A stretch of 38,389 nucleotides of DNA from the NCBI GenBank assembly GCA_012729505.1, contig JAAYDA010000020.1, positions 1 through 38,389 on the forward strand. Direction: 5' to 3'. A program made the translations under genes and the position numbers. Under the pieces are notes generated by a model, which did not search any database, was not told the origin of the DNA, and saw only the letters and a program-made list of their open reading frames with translations. The stretch is from Syntrophomonadaceae bacterium (GTDB lineage Bacteria > Bacillota > Syntrophomonadia > Syntrophomonadales > DTU052). Positions 1,828 to 32,363 of this stretch are shown here, piece by piece (the first letter of the stretch is position 1; the number at the start of each line of letters is the position of its first letter).

Positions 1828-2313
1828 GTGAGTACTTTGGATACAGTATTGTCCTTGTTTATTGCAGCCTTTGCGGGCACCCTTATAGGCTATCTCAACC
1901 AGCGCCGGGGAGGGGCAGGAGGAGTCCGGACCTTTGGGCTGATCTGCAGTGGAGCAGCACTGGCAGCCATTGTATCCCGGCAGTTTTTTGTGTCGCTTGG
2001 TCTTCCCTGGGCTGCAGATCCCGGAAGGCTCAGTGCTCAGGTTATTCCGGCCTTATTTTTTCTGAGCGCCGGGGTATTCTGGGTGGATCAGGCCAAGGCC
2101 CAAGGTATTTCAACGGTTATAGGTTTGTGGGTGACAGCAATACTGGGACTAATGCTTGGCTCCGGCCTGGGATGGAAAGCAATAGTAATTTTCTCTTTCA
2201 TCATGGGAATATATTTTCTGTTAGATTGGCTTACCGATTATATTTATCGCAGAAATCGAACGGTTGAAGGGGACAAAGAAAATAAAATGGGGTCACAACC
2301 TGATAAAGGCTGA
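1828..2313 (+). CDS. MgtC/SapB-like membrane protein
   Basis: A 161-residue hydrophobic protein with about four predicted membrane segments. Its pattern resembles the MgtC/SapB N-terminal domain: a first helix with GTLIGYLNQRRGG, then GGVRTFGLICSGAALAAIVS, then DPGRLSAQVIPALFFLSAGVFW, then GISTVIGLWVTAILGLMLGSG. The family is linked to growth under low magnesium and to membrane physiology, but its biochemical role is unsettled. The C-terminal tail is short and charged. The start is GTG at 1828 with AGGAG at 1817-1821. It probably follows guaB in the same transcript, and a hairpin overlapping its stop codon may end it. The family call rests on motif resemblance only. Confidence 0.65.
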   Translation: MSTLDTVLSLFIAAFAGTLIGYLNQRRGGAGGVRTFGLICSGAALAAIVSRQFFVSLGLPWAADPGRLSAQVIPALFFLSAGVFWVDQAKAQGISTVIGLWVTAILGLMLGSGLGWKAIVIFSFIMGIYFLLDWLTDYIYRRNRTVEGDKENKMGSQPDKG

Positions 2314-2326
2314 ACCCCATATTTTT
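2287..2326 (+). terminator. Terminator between convergent genes
   Basis: The inverted repeat ATGGGGTCA...TGAACCCCAT, with a loop of about 15 bases and then ATTTTTAG, spans the stop of the MgtC-like gene. It abuts the stop of the minus-strand DUF1858 gene at 2325, so it could act in both directions. Confidence 0.55.
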
Positions 2327-2540
2327 AGTTTAAGTTTTCGGTGTTATTCTTTGCATCCAGATCCTGAAGATCGTTAACCAGCTTTTCTATGTTTACTCCA
2401 TGAATTTGAGCACCCTGCTCAATTGTCTCATATTGAGCGCCGCCTCAACCGACACACCGAATGCCGTGTTGCATAAATACCCTTGCAGAACCTTTTACTT
2501 TCCTGAGTACATCTCCGATTATATCGTTTTTTGATACCAT
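2325..2540 (-). CDS. DUF1858-type redox protein, predicted selenoprotein (in-frame UGA at codon 32)
   Basis: Read through the UGA, this frame gives 71 residues that fit the DUF1858 (hybrid-cluster-associated redox disulfide) domain: start MVSKNDIIGDVL, then MQHGIRCVG-U-GGAQYETIEQGAQ, then HGVNIEKLVNDL. Relatives carry CVGC at this point. Here the second cysteine codon is TGA (2445-2447), so selenocysteine in a C-x-x-U motif is the natural reading. A SECIS-like hairpin begins about 20 nt after the UGA. Similarity, frame and lack of any other lesion continue on both sides. The ribosome site is GGAGGTGA just before the ATG, and a TATACT -10 lies at 2574-2579. The function is probably thiol/selenol redox chemistry in the cytoplasm; substrate unknown. 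UGA ends other genes here (mutL, for example), so the code is not reassigned. The alternative is a nonsense mutation or sequencing error. Confidence 0.8.
2401..2427 (-). promoter_or_regulatory. Bacterial SECIS-like hairpin downstream of UGA
   Basis: In the mRNA sense, TTGAGC (2422-2417), loop AGGGT (2416-2412), GCTCAA (2411-2406) forms a perfect 6-bp stem. It extends by AATT/AATT with one bulged A and an outer ATG/CAT pairing. The GGU-containing apical loop starts 28 nt after the UGA. That fits the known bacterial arrangement, a small loop with G near its start some 16-37 nt after the codon, which SelB recognises. Confidence 0.72.
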
Positions 2541-2597
2541 AAAGTCACCTCCATAAGTATTCTTATCCTTTTTAGTATAACAATAACTAATAATTGA

Positions 2598-2737: not shown

Positions 2738-2929
2738 CTACCGAGACTTGGAAATATCTTGGCTGAGACTCTGCTCAGCTCTCATGATCGCCATTTTTAC
2801 AAGGTTGCCACAATCGCGGGAAGTTACTCCACCAAAACCTTCCCGGGCCACGATCTGGTCTACGCCTAATTCTTTGGCTAACTCCCATTTGAGTTCATCA
2901 GACATAATACCGTTACGATTTCGGCCCAT
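2738..2929 (-). CDS. Alpha/beta-type small acid-soluble spore protein
   Basis: A 63-residue DNA-binding protein that coats and protects the chromosome in dormant spores. The sequence MGRNRNGIMSDELKWELAKELG and then GGVTSRDCGNLVKMAI matches the conserved SASP core, closest in style to SspF-like members. The SASP family is also a protease substrate at germination. The ribosome site AAGGAGAG at 2936-2943 fixes the ATG at 2929. A CATAATA sequence (minus strand of 2963-2969) resembles the -10 of forespore sigma-G promoters, but the -35 match is poor. It sits alone between a hairpin and the divergent fur gene. Its presence is strong evidence that the organism makes endospores. Confidence 0.93.
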   Translation of the reverse strand: MGRNRNGIMSDELKWELAKELGVDQIVAREGFGGVTSRDCGNLVKMAIMRAEQSLSQDISKSR

Positions 2930-24223: not shown

Positions 24224-25912
24224 TCAGGAGTGGCCGCCTTTGGCCATTTCTTCATCGCGCAGAAGGCGTCGCAGGGCTTTGCCAACACCGGTACGGGGCA
24301 ATGATGCTTTGAACTCTATTTCACGCGGGACTTTGTAAGCGGCCAGTTGTTCCTTACAGTAAGCAATCAGATCAGCTTCTGATACAGTGGCGCCTTCAAT
24401 CAGTTGTACGAATGCCTTGACCATTTCACCACGGTATGAATCAGGGATACCGACAGTTATTACATCCTTTACCTGAGAGTGTTTAATCAGGACCTCATCG
24501 ATGTCACGCGGGTAAATGTTAAATCCGCCTGAAATAATGATATCTTTGGAGCGGTCAACAATAAAGATATAACCGTCTTCATCACGGTAGGCAATGTCGC
24601 CGGTGTATAGCCAGCCGTCCTTTAAGACTTTGGCGGTTTCTTCAGGGTCATTCCAGTATCCCTTCATGACCAGGGGAGAACGCATTACAATTTCACCCCG
24701 TTCACCAATCGGCAGCTCTTCTCCGGTATTGACGTCAATAATTTTAACGTCGGCATCCGGATAAGGAAGGCCAATGCTGCCGTCCTTCTTTTGGCCGATG
24801 TAAGGATTAGTAATCCCCAGGGAAGTGGTTTCACTCATGCCCCATCCCTCGGCCACAAAAATGTTGAGGTCACGGCCCTTTTGAAGCAGTGCCGGCGGAC
24901 AAGGTGCCGCACCGCTATTAAAAACCCCCATTTTTTTGCCTAAATCCAATTCGTTGGCCCGGGGATGATTCAAGACTGCCGTAAACATGGTCGGTACTGC
25001 CGGGAAATAAGTGATTTCTTCGAATAATGACAAAGTCTCCATGACTTCAGCAGGATCAAAACGGGGCAATAATATCTGGGTTGACCTGCTGATGATTCCA
25101 TAACACAGGCAACAGATTTCACCATAAACATGTGAGTAGGGAAGCACACAGAATACGGTCCGCCGGGGAACAGGAATCAGATTGAGAATGCTGCCGGCCC
25201 ATTCGTTCACCGAGTATGCCGCAACAACCAGATTATGATGAGTGAGTATTGCTCCTTTGGGACTGCCGGTGGTTCCGGTAGTGAACTGAATAACCGCCGG
25301 ATCGGAATAATCAATGGGAAGGCCGGGAGGAGTTTCATTGGTGCTGGTCGCCAGGAACTGAGAATAATGATGCCAACCGGGCTCAAGTCCAAGCCCTTCC
25401 GGAGTACTTTCCGGGGCGGCATCCACAAAGTCAGTGACTTTGGTAACTAGTATAAAAGGAAGTCTATATTCCGCTATTAGTTGCCGAATGACCGGCAGGA
25501 CGGTATCGAAGGTGACTATACCTGACATTTCAGTTTTGGTAGCGATTTTCAAGAGGTCATCGGCAGTATACATAGCGTTCAGATTTACGATTATGGCGCC
25601 GGCATGGAGCAATGCCCAGAAAGTTATGACAAACTGAGGACAGTTAGGGAGCATCAGTCCTATTCGGTCGCCTTTCTTAATTCCGGCTGCAATAAAACCA
25701 TTGGCCAGTCTAATGACTTTAAGTTGGAGTTCCCAGAAGGTGATTTCGGTACCATAAAAATAGGTGGCAGATTTCTTTGGTTCTACATTAGCGGCAATTC
25801 TCAGGAGTTCATGGGCTGGAAATCGAGGATAATTTATGGTGGGACGAACATCCGGGTCATGTCCGGCCAGCCAGGGGCGCCGGGCCGCTACTTCAGGAGC
25901 TAATACCGACAT
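24224..25912 (-). CDS. Acyl-CoA ligase (AMP-forming), first copy
   Basis: Activates a carboxylic acid, probably a fatty acid, to its CoA thioester with ATP. The 562-residue protein has the ANL fold: the P-loop-like FTTGTTGSPKGAILTH, the AMP-site EGWGMSETTSLG, the hinge TGDIAYRDEDGYIFIVDRSKDIIISGG and the C-terminal catalytic Lys in PRTGVGKALRR. The family includes FadD-type long-chain ligases; the exact substrate is unknown. ATG 25912 has AAGGAGG at 25921-25927, so an upstream in-frame start at 25930 is rejected. It is the last of three acyl-CoA genes read on this strand, and it has a closely similar relative at 28500-30173. Confidence 0.92.
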   Translation of the reverse strand: MSVLAPEVAARRPWLAGHDPDVRPTINYPRFPAHELLRIAANVEPKKSATYFYGTEITFWELQLKVIRLANGFIAAGIKKGDRIGLMLPNCPQFVITFWALLHAGAIIVNLNAMYTADDLLKIATKTEMSGIVTFDTVLPVIRQLIAEYRLPFILVTKVTDFVDAAPESTPEGLGLEPGWHHYSQFLATSTNETPPGLPIDYSDPAVIQFTTGTTGSPKGAILTHHNLVVAAYSVNEWAGSILNLIPVPRRTVFCVLPYSHVYGEICCLCYGIISRSTQILLPRFDPAEVMETLSLFEEITYFPAVPTMFTAVLNHPRANELDLGKKMGVFNSGAAPCPPALLQKGRDLNIFVAEGWGMSETTSLGITNPYIGQKKDGSIGLPYPDADVKIIDVNTGEELPIGERGEIVMRSPLVMKGYWNDPEETAKVLKDGWLYTGDIAYRDEDGYIFIVDRSKDIIISGGFNIYPRDIDEVLIKHSQVKDVITVGIPDSYRGEMVKAFVQLIEGATVSEADLIAYCKEQLAAYKVPREIEFKASLPRTGVGKALRRLLRDEEMAKGGHS

Positions 25913-25930
25913 ACTTACAACCTCCTTCAA

Positions 25931-26427
25931 AGATTTAATCTTGTTCTCTTATATAGACCAGAATTCTAGCTTTTCACCCCCCTCCAAGAAGACTAAAATA
26001 AGGCCGGAAGTAAACCAGGTAAACATAATGGCTTGCATGGTGGGCAGGTCATTCTAGGTTAATCGAGTATCAGCCGGGAGCAACAGTTCTTTGGTCAAGG
26101 TATTCTTTGGTTGTGGATGTTATGCAATTTGAGTAGAAATAAGAAAAAACTCTCTATAAGCAGTAACGGAAAAAAACCACTTACAGACATGCCGGTAAAA
26201 AAATTGACGGATTGGCGCGTCTATTCACTCAATTCACACAATTAAAAATATTTAAAATACTTATCAATTAATATTTTATATAATTTCAATTAATCCTCTA
26301 TTTCTATAAGAAATATTTTAGAAGGAGAGGCAGGGTCTTGAAGTGGAAAGCCATTATAACCAGATTTACATACCGTAATAGATTTTTGAGCAGGCAGGCC
26401 GGTTGAAGCTACTGTTTGCGCAGCAAT
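25931..26427. other. AT-rich intergenic region
   Basis: About 500 bp with low GC upstream of the first ligase. I see no gene of normal size, no good sigma-54 site and none of the GATNCA-N4-TGNATC sites found elsewhere. The plus strand has a -10-like TATAAT at 26279-26284 ahead of a short candidate frame at 26338. Confidence 0.4.
26338..26406 (+). CDS. Candidate 22-residue peptide
   Basis: A TTG-started frame of 22 codons, beginning MKWKAIITRF and ending in TGA, with a strong ribosome site GAAGGAGAGG at 26321-26330 seven bases before it. A TATAAT is about 55 bp upstream and a hairpin with T run 20 bp downstream. The peptide is strongly basic. It may be chance; only the unusual combination of signals supports it. 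Confidence 0.25.
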   Translation: MKWKAIITRFTYRNRFLSRQAG

Positions 26428-26466
26428 AAAAAAGCTGAGAAGAATATGTTTTCCTCCCAGCTTTTT
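26428..26466 (-). terminator. Terminator after the acyl-CoA dehydrogenase gene
   Basis: AAAAAAGCTG (26428-26437) and CAGCTTTTT (26458-26466) pair; on the minus strand the stem is followed by a T run (TTTTTTATTG). The A/T arms mean it could also work on the plus strand. Confidence 0.75.
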
Positions 26467-26497
26467 GTATTGGTATAGACAAGTGGAAACGATCCTA

Positions 26498-28321
26498 TTA
26501 GTATTCGAATATTTCGATGGGTGCAATGGAAACGGTGTCATCTCCATCCTTAACCAGCCTGGTAATATAAACCATATTAGGCACAACGTTTCTAATGTAA
26601 TAGCGGGCGGAGAGAACTTTGCCGTAGTAAAAATTGTAATCGAAGTGCTCAGGTCCAAGTTCATCAGCTTTCCTTTGGGCAATAAGGGCCTGATCGAGCA
26701 GGAGATATCCGCCATAGAGCTGACCCGTAGCGGTTAGGATCAATCGAGCCAGAACCCTATAGTATGACATCTCTTTGTTGGCCTTGTATTCAGCCATGGC
26801 ACCCATAATCTCCCTGTATGAAGAAAGTGCCTCGGCAAGATTGGCAAATTCCTTCTCAAAGCCTTTCACACTTAGATTAACTGTGATGAATTCCTCGATT
26901 TCTTTCAGGAAATCAGCAAAAGATTCGCCGTTATTCATGGACCATTTACGGTTAATTAAATCCTGAGCCTGTACGAAATTAGTCCCTTCCCAAATGGAAT
27001 AGATTTTAACATCCCGGGCGGCTTGGGCAGCGGGATAATCTTCACAGTAACCATAACCGCCATAAGCTTGAATGGATTCAGAAATCAAATTCCAGGCCTC
27101 GTCACTGGGATAAGCCTTGCATATAGGGGTCAGGATATCAGCTCTGGCGCCGGCCCGGGCGCGCCGGTCTGAATCAGGATCGTTGTGGAAGACATCTTGA
27201 TAATAATAAGCTTTATAAATCATAGCCCGGCAAGCTTCGAGAGTAGCCTTGTTGAGCATTAACATGCGTTTAACGTCATCGTGATAGATGATGGGTACCC
27301 GAGGTCCTTTGGGATCTGAAGGGGAACGGCCCTGCAGTCTTTCCAGACAGTAATTCTTTGCGTTCCAGTAAGCATTAGCTGCTACTGACAGGGCTTGCAG
27401 ACCGGTACCTTTACGTTCTTCGTTCATCATCTGGAACATTTGGGACATCCCTTTGCTGACACCATCTGGTCCAGGGGGATCTCCTAATAGCCAGCCCCGG
27501 GTATTATCATTATCGCCGCAGGCCAGGGCTGCTGTGGGCTGGGCATGCAATCCCATCTTGTGCTCAAGGGCCGTGGTGACCACATCGTTGTCCTCCAGAG
27601 ATCCATCATCATTGACCCAATACTTGGGAACCACAAACAAAGAAATACCTTTGGTTCCGGCTGCAGCTCCTTCGATTCGGGCCAAATAGAGATGAATAAT
27701 ATTGTCGGAAAAATCGCCGTCGCCACAGGTAATAAATTGCTTCGAACCTTTTATTTTATAAATACGGGGGTCGTTGGTAGGATACGCTTTGGACAGAATA
27801 TCGCCTACATCAGTTCCGGCCGTTGCCTCTGTCAAACACATGGTGCCGGACCAGGTTCCATCAAACATCTTCGGTAAAAATTTCTGTTTTAATTCCTCTG
27901 ATCCAAATTCCTGAATAAGATGAGCCGCACCGGTAGTTAAAGCATGAGCACGCATGGAAGGGCAGGATGCCTGAAACATTTCATAGACTGCACATTGAAG
28001 GATTTCGGGTAAAACTCCTTCTGTATCTTCAAGGTTAGAAGTACCCCAGCCATTTTCCTGAATATATTTAAAAATTTTGGCGTAGGATGGATGGACTGTG
28101 GCTTTTCCATTTTCAAACTTTACTCCGAATTCCTCCATTTCATCCCCGGCGGTTCCGAGTACATCAGCGGCTATTTTGTTTACCTGATCGATCATCATGT
28201 CCAGATCATCGATACTGTAATAGCCATTAAACTTGGCGTAGGTAAAGATTTGTTCCAGAGGCAGCCATTCCTTGAGATTAAATTTGATGTCTCGGGTGCT
28301 GTAGGCATAAACTGAGCTCAA
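26498..28321 (-). CDS. Acyl-CoA dehydrogenase
   Basis: Oxidises an acyl-CoA to the 2-enoyl-CoA with FAD, a beta-oxidation step. The 607-residue protein belongs to the long (about 600 aa) class with a C-terminal extension, like DmdC-type enzymes, rather than the 380-residue short-chain form. It shows MCLTEATAGTDVG (flavin/substrate loop), KGSKQFITCGDGD, AYGGYGYCEDYP and IWEGTNFVQAQDL; the Glu of WEGT is the expected base. The extension from about residue 470 resembles the AcylCoA_dehyd_C region. TTG 28321 is chosen because AAAGGAG lies 9 bases before it; the TTG at 28330 touches that site. It sits between two acyl-CoA ligase genes on the same strand. Substrate unknown. Confidence 0.92.
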   Translation of the reverse strand: MSSVYAYSTRDIKFNLKEWLPLEQIFTYAKFNGYYSIDDLDMMIDQVNKIAADVLGTAGDEMEEFGVKFENGKATVHPSYAKIFKYIQENGWGTSNLEDTEGVLPEILQCAVYEMFQASCPSMRAHALTTGAAHLIQEFGSEELKQKFLPKMFDGTWSGTMCLTEATAGTDVGDILSKAYPTNDPRIYKIKGSKQFITCGDGDFSDNIIHLYLARIEGAAAGTKGISLFVVPKYWVNDDGSLEDNDVVTTALEHKMGLHAQPTAALACGDNDNTRGWLLGDPPGPDGVSKGMSQMFQMMNEERKGTGLQALSVAANAYWNAKNYCLERLQGRSPSDPKGPRVPIIYHDDVKRMLMLNKATLEACRAMIYKAYYYQDVFHNDPDSDRRARAGARADILTPICKAYPSDEAWNLISESIQAYGGYGYCEDYPAAQAARDVKIYSIWEGTNFVQAQDLINRKWSMNNGESFADFLKEIEEFITVNLSVKGFEKEFANLAEALSSYREIMGAMAEYKANKEMSYYRVLARLILTATGQLYGGYLLLDQALIAQRKADELGPEHFDYNFYYGKVLSARYYIRNVVPNMVYITRLVKDGDDTVSIAPIEIFEY

Positions 28322-28443
28322 ATATAACAACTCCTTTGTGAAAAATATAATTTAATTACAGTATAAAACAAGCTACACCGGGATGCCAGAGATGGTAGTG
28401 GATTACCTCAGCATGTACCCGGCTAGAATTAATGCAGAGGAAA

Positions 28444-28475
28444 GGACAGTCCAAATGGGTTGGACTGCCCTCGAT
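28444..28475 (-). terminator. Terminator after the second acyl-CoA ligase
   Basis: GGACAGTCCA (28444-28453) and TGGACTGCCC (28461-28470) pair with one mismatch. On the minus strand TTTCCT follows. It lies between the ligase stop (28500) and the dehydrogenase start. Confidence 0.65.
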
Positions 28476-28499
28476 ACTTTGCAGATGTGCTTGATTATT

Positions 28500-30173
28500 T
28501 TAGGATTTTTGGGCTTTGGCGACTTCTTCTTCCCGCAAAATTCTGCGGAGAGCTTTCCCGGTATTGGTGCGGGGGAGTTCAGAACGGGCTTCCCAGAGTT
28601 TGGGAACCTTATAAGCCGCCAGTTTTTCCCGGCATAAAGCTTCCAGTTCCTCGAATGTAACGGTTGCGCCCGGCTTAAGCTGGACAAAAGCCTTTACGGT
28701 CTCGCCGCGATATTCGTGAGGAACACCTACTGCCATAGCATCTACCACATCGGGATGCTGCAGAAGAACTTCATCCACGTCCCGAGGATAAATGTTATAT
28801 CCTCCGGCAATAATCATATCCTTGGTACGGTCAACGATGAAGATATAGCCATCTTCGTCCATATAAGCCACATCGCCGGTTTTTAGCCATCCATCTTCGG
28901 TGATGGTATTAGCCGTTTCTTCAGGATTGTCCCAGTAACCGGTCATGACCGTTGCGCCTCTCATCCATATCTCACCGCGTTCACCCAGAGGTACATCATT
29001 GCCATTGTCATCAACCAAACGAAGTTCCATATCAATATAAGGAACGCCAACACTGCCAACTTTAGGCCGGCCGCCGGGAGTGCTTATTGCCATGGCGCAA
29101 GTTTCACTCATGCCATAACCTTCGTAGAAGTTGAAATCATAGTCACGGCACTTTTGGTACAGAGCAAGTGTGGCTGGAGCTGCGCCAGTACCACAGTAAA
29201 CCATCTTGCGGTGCCAATCGATTTCCTCAACGCGTGGGTTGTAGAACAGTGCCTGCAGCATGGTAGGCACTGCAGGGAAGTATGCCCATTGGTCATAACG
29301 CTCTAAGGTATCAAAGACTTCATCAGGCAGATAACGGGGCAGGATGACCATGGTCATCTGGGCGCGGGCTGCGTATAGAATACAGCAGACTTCTCCATAG
29401 ACATGGCACATGGGGATTACAGCCAGAAGATTTTGGATTTCAGTTGGCTCATTGTCAACCATTTCAATACACCACATTACTACCTGATAGGCTGCAGCAG
29501 TAATATTGAATTGACTCAGAGTGGCCCCTTTGGGAGTACCGGTAGTTCCACCCGTGTATTGGATAACTGCGGGATCGGAATGCTTGATATTGATCTGGGG
29601 CGGTGCCCAGCGTTTGTCGGTTTCAAGAACCTTCGAGAAATGCAGCCATCCCGGCTGAAGACCCAGTGCTTCGTCAGTGCTGATGGTTGCGCTGGGCATG
29701 AAGTCGGCCAAGCTAGTGACCAGTACAGTAGAAATATTAAGTTTCTCAGCCAGGGGCTTTACCAGCGGTACCAGCGCGTCATAAGTCACCAGTCCGGTAA
29801 GACCTGAATCCTTGAAGGAGAATTCCAATTCATCTGATGTATATAATGGGTTAAGGTTTACTATTACTCCTCCCGCCATAAGAATTGACCAGAAGGAAAT
29901 AACAAATTGAGGGCAGTTGGGAAGAAGAATCCCCACGCGATCGCCATGCTTAATGCCATTTTCAACTAACACGTTAGCCAAGCGAGTTACCTTCAGGTAT
30001 AGCTCGTCAAAAGTAATTTTCGCACCGTAAAAATCAATGGCGGTCTTGTCAGGCTGATAAACGCAGGCATCACGAAGAACATAATAGGCCGGGGTCAACG
30101 GATACCTCATTGTAGTTGGTGTCTTCCAATTGTAGGTTTTTGTCCAGAATCGGCTTTCGTAAGGTGATGACAT
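28500..30173 (-). CDS. Acyl-CoA ligase (AMP-forming), second copy
   Basis: A 557-residue ANL-family ligase closely related to the one at 24224-25912. It has the motifs YTGGTTGTPKGATLS, YEGYGMSETCAMA, TGDVAYMDEDGYIFIVDRTKDMIIAGG and the catalytic Lys in PRTNTGKALRR. Its N-terminus differs (MSSPYESRFWTKTYNW). It probably activates a fatty or related acid in the cytoplasm. The ATG at 30173 has AAGGAGGG nine bases upstream. About 350 bp upstream is a near-consensus sigma-54 promoter with three inverted-repeat sites, so, unlike its relative, this copy is predicted to be under the sigma-54 activator. Confidence 0.93.
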   Translation of the reverse strand: MSSPYESRFWTKTYNWKTPTTMRYPLTPAYYVLRDACVYQPDKTAIDFYGAKITFDELYLKVTRLANVLVENGIKHGDRVGILLPNCPQFVISFWSILMAGGVIVNLNPLYTSDELEFSFKDSGLTGLVTYDALVPLVKPLAEKLNISTVLVTSLADFMPSATISTDEALGLQPGWLHFSKVLETDKRWAPPQINIKHSDPAVIQYTGGTTGTPKGATLSQFNITAAAYQVVMWCIEMVDNEPTEIQNLLAVIPMCHVYGEVCCILYAARAQMTMVILPRYLPDEVFDTLERYDQWAYFPAVPTMLQALFYNPRVEEIDWHRKMVYCGTGAAPATLALYQKCRDYDFNFYEGYGMSETCAMAISTPGGRPKVGSVGVPYIDMELRLVDDNGNDVPLGERGEIWMRGATVMTGYWDNPEETANTITEDGWLKTGDVAYMDEDGYIFIVDRTKDMIIAGGYNIYPRDVDEVLLQHPDVVDAMAVGVPHEYRGETVKAFVQLKPGATVTFEELEALCREKLAAYKVPKLWEARSELPRTNTGKALRRILREEEVAKAQKS

Positions 30174-30522
30174 TATAGAGGCCCTCCTTAATTCATAATG
30201 GGTATTGCCAAACTAGGATGAAAATGATGAATTATAATTCCGTTGGTGTTTACGGCAAGTAGTCTTGCATATATCCGGAATATTTAGGATTTAGGCTTGT
30301 ACTTACCTTTGAATGATTCTGACTATATAGAGTGGTGCGGATGATCAAATTTACAGCATAATATGGATGGTGCGATAATTGGGAAACAAGCTCCACCTAA
30401 CAATGCTAAACTAGTTTGCCTGCTTAGGGTTGAATAAGAAATGGATTAAACTAATCGCCTCCTTTTTAATAATTCCACATGAGAATAATTTACATATTTA
30501 AAGTAGGATCATTAACTAGGAA

Positions 30523-30540
30523 ATGCAAAAACCGTGCCAT
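30523..30540 (-). promoter_or_regulatory. Sigma-54 promoter for the second acyl-CoA ligase
   Basis: The minus strand reads ATGGCACGGTTTTTGCAT, which matches TGGCACG-N4-TTGC exactly, with GG and GC elements 10 bp apart. Three inverted-repeat sites lie upstream of it. It directs transcription toward the ligase start at 30173, giving a leader of about 340 nt. Confidence 0.88.
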
Positions 30541-30672
30541 ATAGACGATTATCACTGAAAACAATCATAAAACCCTATTATAAGTGCCGAATAATGGTAA
30601 TAGCCAACTTATTTAATCGACTTTCTAAACAGAAATATTGTGACTTACTGCAGAGTCAAATATAGTCAATTT

Positions 30673-30688
30673 GATGCAAATATGTATC
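30673..30688. promoter_or_regulatory. Activator-site inverted repeat 1 (GATGCA-AATA-TGTATC)
   Basis: A 16-bp site of the form GATNCA-N4-TGNATC, centred about 154 bp upstream of the -12 element at 30523-30540, a normal enhancer distance. Confidence 0.7.
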
Positions 30689-30761
30689 GAGATTGGAGAT
30701 CATCGATAGCTTGTCAAGGTAAAAGCTGAGATTGTCCCGTTTGAATCACATTCTGGAAAAT

Positions 30762-30777
30762 GATTCAAAATAGAATC
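30762..30777. promoter_or_regulatory. Activator-site inverted repeat 2 (GATTCA-AAAT-AGAATC)
   Basis: The same motif with one mismatch in the right half (AG for TG). It lies 89 bp from site 1. A TGAATC half-site is present near 30742-30747. Confidence 0.55.
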
Positions 30778-30836
30778 GATAATTAGATTGTTTTAAAGAA
30801 TCAGGCCAACAAGGCGAGAAGAATGGGATTAAAAGT

Positions 30837-30852
30837 GATTCAATATTGCATC
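30837..30852. promoter_or_regulatory. Activator-site inverted repeat 3 (GATTCA-ATAT-TGCATC)
   Basis: A further good match, 75 bp beyond site 2 and next to the ligase remnant. Confidence 0.65.
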
Positions 30853-30883
30853 GAAATTATATTTAAATTCTAAACATTTAAGA

Positions 30884-30967
30884 TTAAATTACTTCATCAG
30901 GAACACCGATAGTCATCGCATCCATTACTGCAGGGTGGGTAAGCAAAACTTCATCAAAGAATGCGTA
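30884..30967 (-). pseudogene. Remnant of a third acyl-CoA ligase gene
   Basis: Between two stop codons the minus strand encodes DEVLLTHPAVMDAMTIGVPDE, which aligns without gaps to DEVLLQHPDVVDAMAVGVPHE of the ligase at 28500-30173 (14 of 21 identical). No similar reading continues in frame on either side, though weak base similarity may extend upstream. It is the C-terminal domain of a decayed ligase. The fragment sits next to the activator sites. Confidence 0.8.
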
Positions 30968-31029
30968 TTATGGTTACATTCCAGGTCTGGGGACGTCTGG
31001 TCTTTTTCGGTTGGCACATAGTAATACCA

Positions 31030-31073
31030 GCAACCGTGACAATAGATGCAAAACATCTATTGTCCAAGGTTGC
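31030..31073 (-). terminator. Long hairpin downstream of the thiolase gene
   Basis: GCAACC and GACAATAGATG pair with CATCTATTGTC and GGTTGC around a 5-base loop, an 11-bp inner and 6-bp outer stem with a small internal loop. It lies 40 bp past the thiolase stop. There is no T run on the minus strand, so it may stabilise the mRNA end or terminate weakly. Confidence 0.5.
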
Positions 31074-31113
31074 CGTTTACTTAAAAAGTTAAAAAAGGGT
31101 AGTTAGGACAGAA

Positions 31114-32295
31114 TTAAATGGATTCTACTATAAATGCAACTCCCGGACCACCGCTGGCACAGAGAGAAGCACATCCGTATCTAACTCCGCGTCGTTTCAT
31201 TTCATTAATCATAGTGACAATCAAACGGGCGCCGGTGGCGCCAACGGGATGACCGATAGCAATACCGGAACCGACTCCATTAACCTTTTCCAGGTCAATT
31301 TTTAGTTCTCGGTTTACTCCCAGGAATTGAGCGGCAAAAGCTTCATTGATTTCCCAATAGTCTATATCGTTCTGCTCTAAACCAGCAAATTTTAACGCCC
31401 GACGAACAGCTGGAACAACTCCCATGCCCATTATACGGGGTTCGACAGCGCCGGAAGCAGAAGACACCACGCGAGCAATAGGTTTAACACCTAACTCCTT
31501 AGCTTTATCAGCCGACATCATAATCAGAGCGGAGCCGCCATCATTCAGGCCGGAAGCATTGGCAGCAGTGACTGTGCCGCCTTTTTTGAAAGCGGGTTTC
31601 AAACGGGCCAAGCTTTCCAGACTCGTATCAGAGCGAGGATGCTCGTCAGTATCAAACATAAATGATCCTTTGCGAGACTGAACTTCAACTGGAACTATCT
31701 CATCTTTGAACCAGCCTTCTTTAATAGCTTGGCAGGCTCTCTGATGGCTTAGAAGTGCATAGGCATCCTGCTCTTCCCTGGTAATACCATACATTTCCGC
31801 GATATTCTCGGCTGTAACTCCCATGTGATAGCCGACAAACTCACATATTAAGCCGCCTTTCATAAGGCCATCGACGATTTGTTCTCCATTGCCCAATCGG
31901 TAACCTTTGCGTGCTCCAAAGAGAAGATAAGGGGTATTAGTCATACTTTCAATGCCAACCGCAGCCCCCATGTCTATTTTGCCCAGCATAATCTCTTGGG
32001 AAAGAATTTCAGCTGCGCGCATAGATGACGGACATTGTTGGTGAACGGTACAGGCAAACGAATCATCCCGGCATCCTGCTCTTAAAGCAACGTGACGAGC
32101 GCTGTTTCCGGGGGAGGAAGACTGGTTGCAATGACCTGCTATAACTTCATCTAGTTGATTAGCCTCCAGACCGGCTCTTTCCAATGCTCCATTTAGAGCG
32201 AACACTCCCAAATCAATGGGGTTGAATCCCTGCAGTGATCCCTGGAAATCGCCTACCGGAGTCCTGGCGCCACTGACAATGACAACTTCTTTCAT
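31114..32295 (-). CDS. Thiolase (acetyl-CoA acetyltransferase family)
   Basis: A 393-residue thiolase that cleaves 3-ketoacyl-CoA with CoA, or condenses two acetyl-CoA in reverse. Catalytic parts are seen: Cys88 in VHQQCPSSMRAAE, NEAFAAQF, GHPVGATGAR and CASGGPG near the end. The usual NQLCGSG around the nucleophile is changed to HQQCPSS, which may affect the substrate. ATG 32295 follows GGAAGGAGA with 7-bp spacing; the ATG at 32301 is too close to it. The gene ends an apparent operon with the CGGC protein and the 4-hydroxybutyryl-CoA dehydratase-type gene. Confidence 0.93.
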   Translation of the reverse strand: MKEVVIVSGARTPVGDFQGSLQGFNPIDLGVFALNGALERAGLEANQLDEVIAGHCNQSSSPGNSARHVALRAGCRDDSFACTVHQQCPSSMRAAEILSQEIMLGKIDMGAAVGIESMTNTPYLLFGARKGYRLGNGEQIVDGLMKGGLICEFVGYHMGVTAENIAEMYGITREEQDAYALLSHQRACQAIKEGWFKDEIVPVEVQSRKGSFMFDTDEHPRSDTSLESLARLKPAFKKGGTVTAANASGLNDGGSALIMMSADKAKELGVKPIARVVSSASGAVEPRIMGMGVVPAVRRALKFAGLEQNDIDYWEINEAFAAQFLGVNRELKIDLEKVNGVGSGIAIGHPVGATGARLIVTMINEMKRRGVRYGCASLCASGGPGVAFIVESI

Positions 32296-32363
32296 GAACA
32301 TTCTCCTTCCTTAAATTACATATAATTATTTATTAATGTTTAAACCCGTCGGTTTCAAACCGG

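Follow-up and report, generated by a model that had tools for sequence, protein, structure and literature searches.

A DUF1858 domain-containing protein (PF08984, WP_012065717.1) with the motif CxxU has been listed in a table of a 2022 review (PMC9312934), and the same CxxU entry appears under "Predicted with high confidence" in a 2026 review (PMC13188914); in their main texts, the papers cited by these reviews for DUF1858 do not name the family. The Cys form of the domain has been described as TIGR03980, the hybrid cluster protein-associated redox disulfide domain, and solved as 2k53 and 2k5e. Another described system is that of the RIC proteins ScdA and YtfE, which have an N-terminal domain (ScdA_N, PF04405), a CC pair and a di-iron hemerythrin-like domain. 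Published context includes Bradyrhizobium, where a DUF1858 gene belongs to the NnrR denitrification regulon (PMC6710368), DrpB of Thermus, which is encoded with nitrate respiration genes (PMC6282519), and Leptospira, where a DUF1858 gene was changed in a perRB mutant (PMC8638851); the passages concerned in these papers deal with regulation or context, not chemistry.

The gene studied here is located on the minus strand of a stretch of 38,389 nucleotides from a Syntrophomonadaceae bacterium (contig JAAYDA010000020.1 of assembly GCA_012729505.1), the whole of which is called the window. Judged by sequence comparison, it almost certainly codes for a selenoprotein of 71 residues that belongs to DUF1858/TIGR03980, with UGA at the second position of CxxC, a bSECIS and the full Sec machinery in the genome. 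The following features have been assigned.

2325..2540, minus strand: predicted selenoprotein coding sequence, DUF1858/TIGR03980, 71 residues with Sec at residue 32 (read-through translation and profile matches)
2540-2538, minus strand: start codon ATG (sequence)
2545..2552, minus strand: Shine-Dalgarno GGAGGTGA (read directly from the sequence)
2445..2447, minus strand: in-frame UGA, predicted to be read as Sec, at the second CxxC position, C29-V-G-U32 (TGA or Cys at this codon in homologues)
2406..2422, minus strand: predicted SECIS hairpin UUGAGC-AGGGU-GCUCAA, loop 2416-2412 (retention in TGA homologues and covariation)
2327-2325, minus strand: stop codon TAA (sequence)
2287..2320, minus strand: strong hairpin followed by UUUUAUUU directly past the stop codon, a probable terminator (fold)
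2738-2929, minus strand: gene for a small acid-soluble spore protein (SASP), immediately upstream of the selenoprotein gene and in the same orientation

The read-through translation is MVSKNDIIGDVLRKVKGSARVFMQHGIRCVG-U-GGAQYETIEQGAQIHGVNIEKLVNDLQDLDAKNNTENLN*, with 31 codons before the UGA and 39 sense codons between it and the TAA, and plain calling of open reading frames recovers only the 31-residue fragment. The sequence-only reading, which had not named the strand, is thus borne out in its account of an intact start with a ribosome site, a normal stop past the UGA and a gene missed by ordinary callers. The probable terminator, which is absent from the output of a consensus terminator scan, overlaps the end of the convergent mgtC gene, and the fold of 2280-2330 has an energy of -19.3 kcal/mol (z -4.4). 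A sigma-70 promoter scan near the gene and an Rfam scan of the window gave no match, and no second selenoprotein was apparent among the other long TGA-interrupted frames of the window (a script list judged by eye). Elsewhere in the window, positions 24224-32301 of the minus strand carry genes for fatty-acid activation and beta-oxidation (two AMP-binding enzymes, an acyl-CoA dehydrogenase and a thiolase), which is consistent with a syntrophic fatty-acid oxidiser.

Membership in the family, which had also been proposed from the sequence with CVGU in place of CVGC, is supported by two profiles: the read-through product scores 56.2 bits against PF08984 (E 3.6e-15; curated cut-off 32.2 bits) and 71.3 bits against TIGR03980 (E 4.9e-20; curated cut-off 44.95 bits), and the TGA falls on the second cysteine of CxxC. 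A PF08984 search of its own genome found this locus as the sole DUF1858, with one internal TGA. An AF2 model, computed from 35 sequences with Cys substituted for Sec, gave a confident four-helix fold (pLDDT 93.8), with residues 29-32 on the loop that links helix 2 to helix 3. Among solved structures, the DUF1858 proteins 2k5e and 2k53 come closest, followed by the YtfE N-terminal domain; the four-helix fold of 2k53 and 2k5e is matched with TMq 0.80 and 0.77.

In a search of 121 genomes, the best matches outside its own genome were to four members of its family, at 62-65% identity, and in each of these a single internal TGA stands at the codon concerned; many other Bacillota also have TGA at the second CxxC codon, and other relatives have Cys. 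Among 54 homologous loci read out for codon comparison, TGA is found at the second CxxC position in 36 (in a few of them at the same place within an altered motif) and at the first cysteine in 3, while 15 have Cys; relatives without TGA at this codon have a Cys codon that is intact, and one of the checks suggested at the outset had concerned this point. Across the order (63 genomes), 32 of 56 DUF1858 matches have an internal TGA. None of the best 150 matches listed in a phylum-wide survey has an internal stop, so that the survey yields no Sec fraction for the phylum. Past the TGA, the median dN/dS is about 0.25 over 45 usable pairs, a rough value since the sequences are short, and differences cluster at third codon positions; this part of the gene is under purifying selection and evolves as coding. 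The gene order guaB - mgtC - selenoprotein gene - SASP is common to the family members and several other genomes of the order, so that the homologues are probably orthologues, and the pairing of SASP with the selenoprotein gene is also kept in relatives. Homologues in phage and plasmid records are distant (<60% identity), and the one that was read (H9) has Cys. Two family members have a second, distinct Sec-DUF1858 paralogue, GVRCFGUGVQ..LTIEQAARDRGENLDE (L073 and L077, at G004:C158 and G001:C61), a type which the PF08984 search did not find in the genome of the window.

The proposed hairpin UUGAGC-AGGGU-GCUCAA starts 22 nt past the UGA. Published limits for a bSECIS are a loop of 3-9 nt starting 16-37 nt past the UGA, a stem of 4-16 bp, a G in the first two loop positions and a minimum free energy of -7.5 kcal/mol or lower. 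With its loop AGGGU starting at 28 nt and its 6-bp stem, the hairpin lies within these limits on loop, G position, stem and spacing, and its energy is -7.4 kcal/mol for 31 nt, slightly outside the energy limit, and -6.6 for the 17-nt hairpin. The minimum free energy fold of the 81-nt stretch past the UGA prefers a competing hairpin, GCUCAAU/AUUGAGC (z -1.2), which was rejected as the SECIS in spite of its lower predicted energy because comparison singles out UUGAGC-AGGGU-GCUCAA. Folding pointed to the wrong hairpin and would not by itself have been enough for a SECIS; comparison decided. Taken alone, the hairpin of the window is modest, about 9% of synonymous versions having a 6-bp stem by chance, and the case for the SECIS thus rests on the comparison.

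As the conserved EQ(G/A)A is encoded where the hairpin lies, synonymous codons served as the control (2000 draws), and a sequence was counted when its 5-nt loop was flanked by 4 bp or more of uninterrupted stem. The hairpin was found in 32 of the 36 TGA homologues, against 4.6 +/- 2.0 by synonymous draws (maximum 13), and in 0 of the 15 Cys homologues (1.0 expected). When 34 TGA sequences are aligned, pairing holds in 94.1% of cells and 14 cells are changed on both sides, and the covariation score is higher than in all 500 shuffles, which ignore relatedness; the same measures for the Cys sequences are at the shuffled mean. The SECIS claimed to follow the UGA is accordingly regarded as real on comparative evidence, although the hairpin is the second of two competing ones. 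One of the four TGA exceptions, L084, has another perfect stem in place (GCCGC-AGGU-GCGGC); the other three (L082, L088 and L089, of one genus) keep the TGA and have an A.C mismatch with no perfect stem. Among the genomes of these three, G043 has selA, selB and tRNA-Sec all detected, in G056 selB lies at a contig edge and tRNA-Sec is present, with selA not found, and G022 has no selA, with selB and tRNA-Sec not over the cut-off; decay of a Sec gene or assembly gaps may be the reason in this genus.

The genome of the window (2.45 Mb in 80 contigs, estimated 100% complete) has selA (564 bits), selB (340 bits, or 362.6 with a C-terminal piece), selD (378 bits) and a tRNA-Sec gene, selC, with anticodon TCA (72 bits). 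All four genes, whose presence had been named as a check, are found within about 10.5 kb of one contig (C49). The selD gene has its own in-frame TGA in the N-terminal active-site motif KAAGUAAK and is therefore a second, independent UGA-Sec gene in this organism.

About 85,000 species genomes were scanned with a DNA pattern (Cys-x-Gly-UGA, 21-24 free bases, GAGCAGG(C/G)TGCTC), and 47 stretches were obtained, 45 of which code for DUF1858 by eye. The source records bear the names Syntrophomonadaceae, Lutispora, Caloramator, Fonticella, Anaeromonas, Desulfosporosinus and several uncultured Bacillota, and one bin each is labelled Chloroflexi, Calditrichales and Sumerlaeota (all names taken from the records); Caloramator quimbayensis and Fonticella tunisiensis are among the species matched. 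The remaining matches, L190 and L191, were set aside as chance matches. A genome-wide protein-pattern scan for the Cys version gave no matches. A UGA together with the near-fixed hairpin GAGCAGG(G/C)TGCTC thus picks out Sec-DUF1858 genes almost without false matches.

The three loci with TGA at the first cysteine (L072, L076 and L083, at G020:C100:23216, G031:C2:498563 and G037:C161:20301) would have the motif UxxC (GULGC). They come from three genomes of two genera, all with selA, selB and tRNA-Sec, and their closest relatives have Cys at this position; since no single hairpin is convincing across all three, UxxC is treated as a candidate only. Other odd motifs among the homologues are CU (L091), YxxU (L089), CLDU (L053 and L081) and FGU with one residue missing (L078). 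It appears fairly probable that the Sec position varies within the redox motif of this one small family, from CxxU to the candidate UxxC and the odd cases. The UxxC arrangement is apparently not in the published catalogues, whose entries for DUF1858 give CxxU only. If it is real, the attacking role would be open to either cysteine and the domain would provide a natural series for comparison.

The gene might instead be a Cys DUF1858 gene broken by a change of TGC or TGT to TGA, either natural or introduced in assembly: TGA is one base from the Cys codons, errors occur in MAG-like assemblies and many relatives have Cys. We regard this explanation as exceedingly improbable, in view of the TGA in all four same-family members and in 36 read-out loci overall, the absence of the hairpin from Cys forms, the coding-type evolution past the TGA and the sel genes in the genome. 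Sequencing error in particular, which had been raised as a concern, can be all but dismissed, since the TGA recurs in independent genomes together with a covarying hairpin. Decoding of UGA as Sec is always in competition with release, and it is on this ground that the UGA might be a real stop and its read-through a minor or regulatory event, with the 31-residue peptide as the main product and the full-length Sec protein made only when selenium is plentiful. Such a peptide would make up roughly half of the fold, without helices 3 and 4, and the part past the UGA is strongly conserved, which leaves a real stop very improbable.

With Sec insertion accepted, SelB carrying Sec-tRNA-Sec would bind the hairpin and Sec would be inserted at residue 32, where it could serve as the attacking group with Cys29 as the resolving thiol. 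We lean slightly to a function of the CVGU pair as a reversible selenenyl-sulfide/selenol-thiol switch of this kind in a small cytosolic reductase; the model with CxxU in a loop was counted in its favour, and in the literature found, there is no experiment showing redox activity of any DUF1858 protein. The protein might instead be mainly a metal or Fe-S/NO-handling partner, its Cys/Sec pair binding or handing on a metal or a sulfur/NO ligand, as thought for the RIC N-terminal domain. Kinship in sequence and fold with the Fe-S repair proteins ScdA and YtfE (N-terminal domain), a SufT-DUF1858 fusion on record (PMC4982691) and the DUF1858 gene placed within a denitrification regulon (PMC6710368) speak for such a partner, whereas Sec in CxxU is usually taken as a redox signature, the selenoprotein offers no evidence of a metal site and no Fe-S or NO gene adjoins the locus. 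A role as metal or NO partner thus seems possible but rather unlikely.

Comparison with the described systems places the protein as follows. The ScdA_N profile gives 21.7 bits, below its cut-off of 32.5, the fold similarity to the RIC N-terminal domain is TMq ~0.72, and ScdA was also matched by phmmer, with its CC pair aligned near CxxU; on this weak sequence similarity, the selenoprotein is kin to the RIC/ScdA_N domain, not a member of it, and it has CxxU and is without the di-iron hemerythrin-like domain. Against TIGR03980, the whole domain scores above the cut-off and the fold is the same, and the difference from the Cys form is that Sec replaces its second Cys; among the neighbours examined, none of the genes beside the selenoprotein gene is for a hybrid cluster protein. 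With the catalogued WP_012065717.1, which was predicted from Sec/Cys pairs, it shares PF08984, CxxU and one Sec, and the genome and lineage are new here. The sequence-only reading had supposed that Sec-DUF1858 proteins were perhaps not well described; as CxxU is already in the 2022 and 2026 reviews, the finding is right, but this kind of protein was known before. The present analysis adds a SECIS consensus and the observation that Cys forms lack it, neither of which is given in the main texts of these reviews. A family in which Sec forms have the hairpin and Cys forms do not can serve as a clean test set, both for SECIS rules and for what DUF1858 does in anaerobes, syntrophic fatty-acid oxidisers among them.
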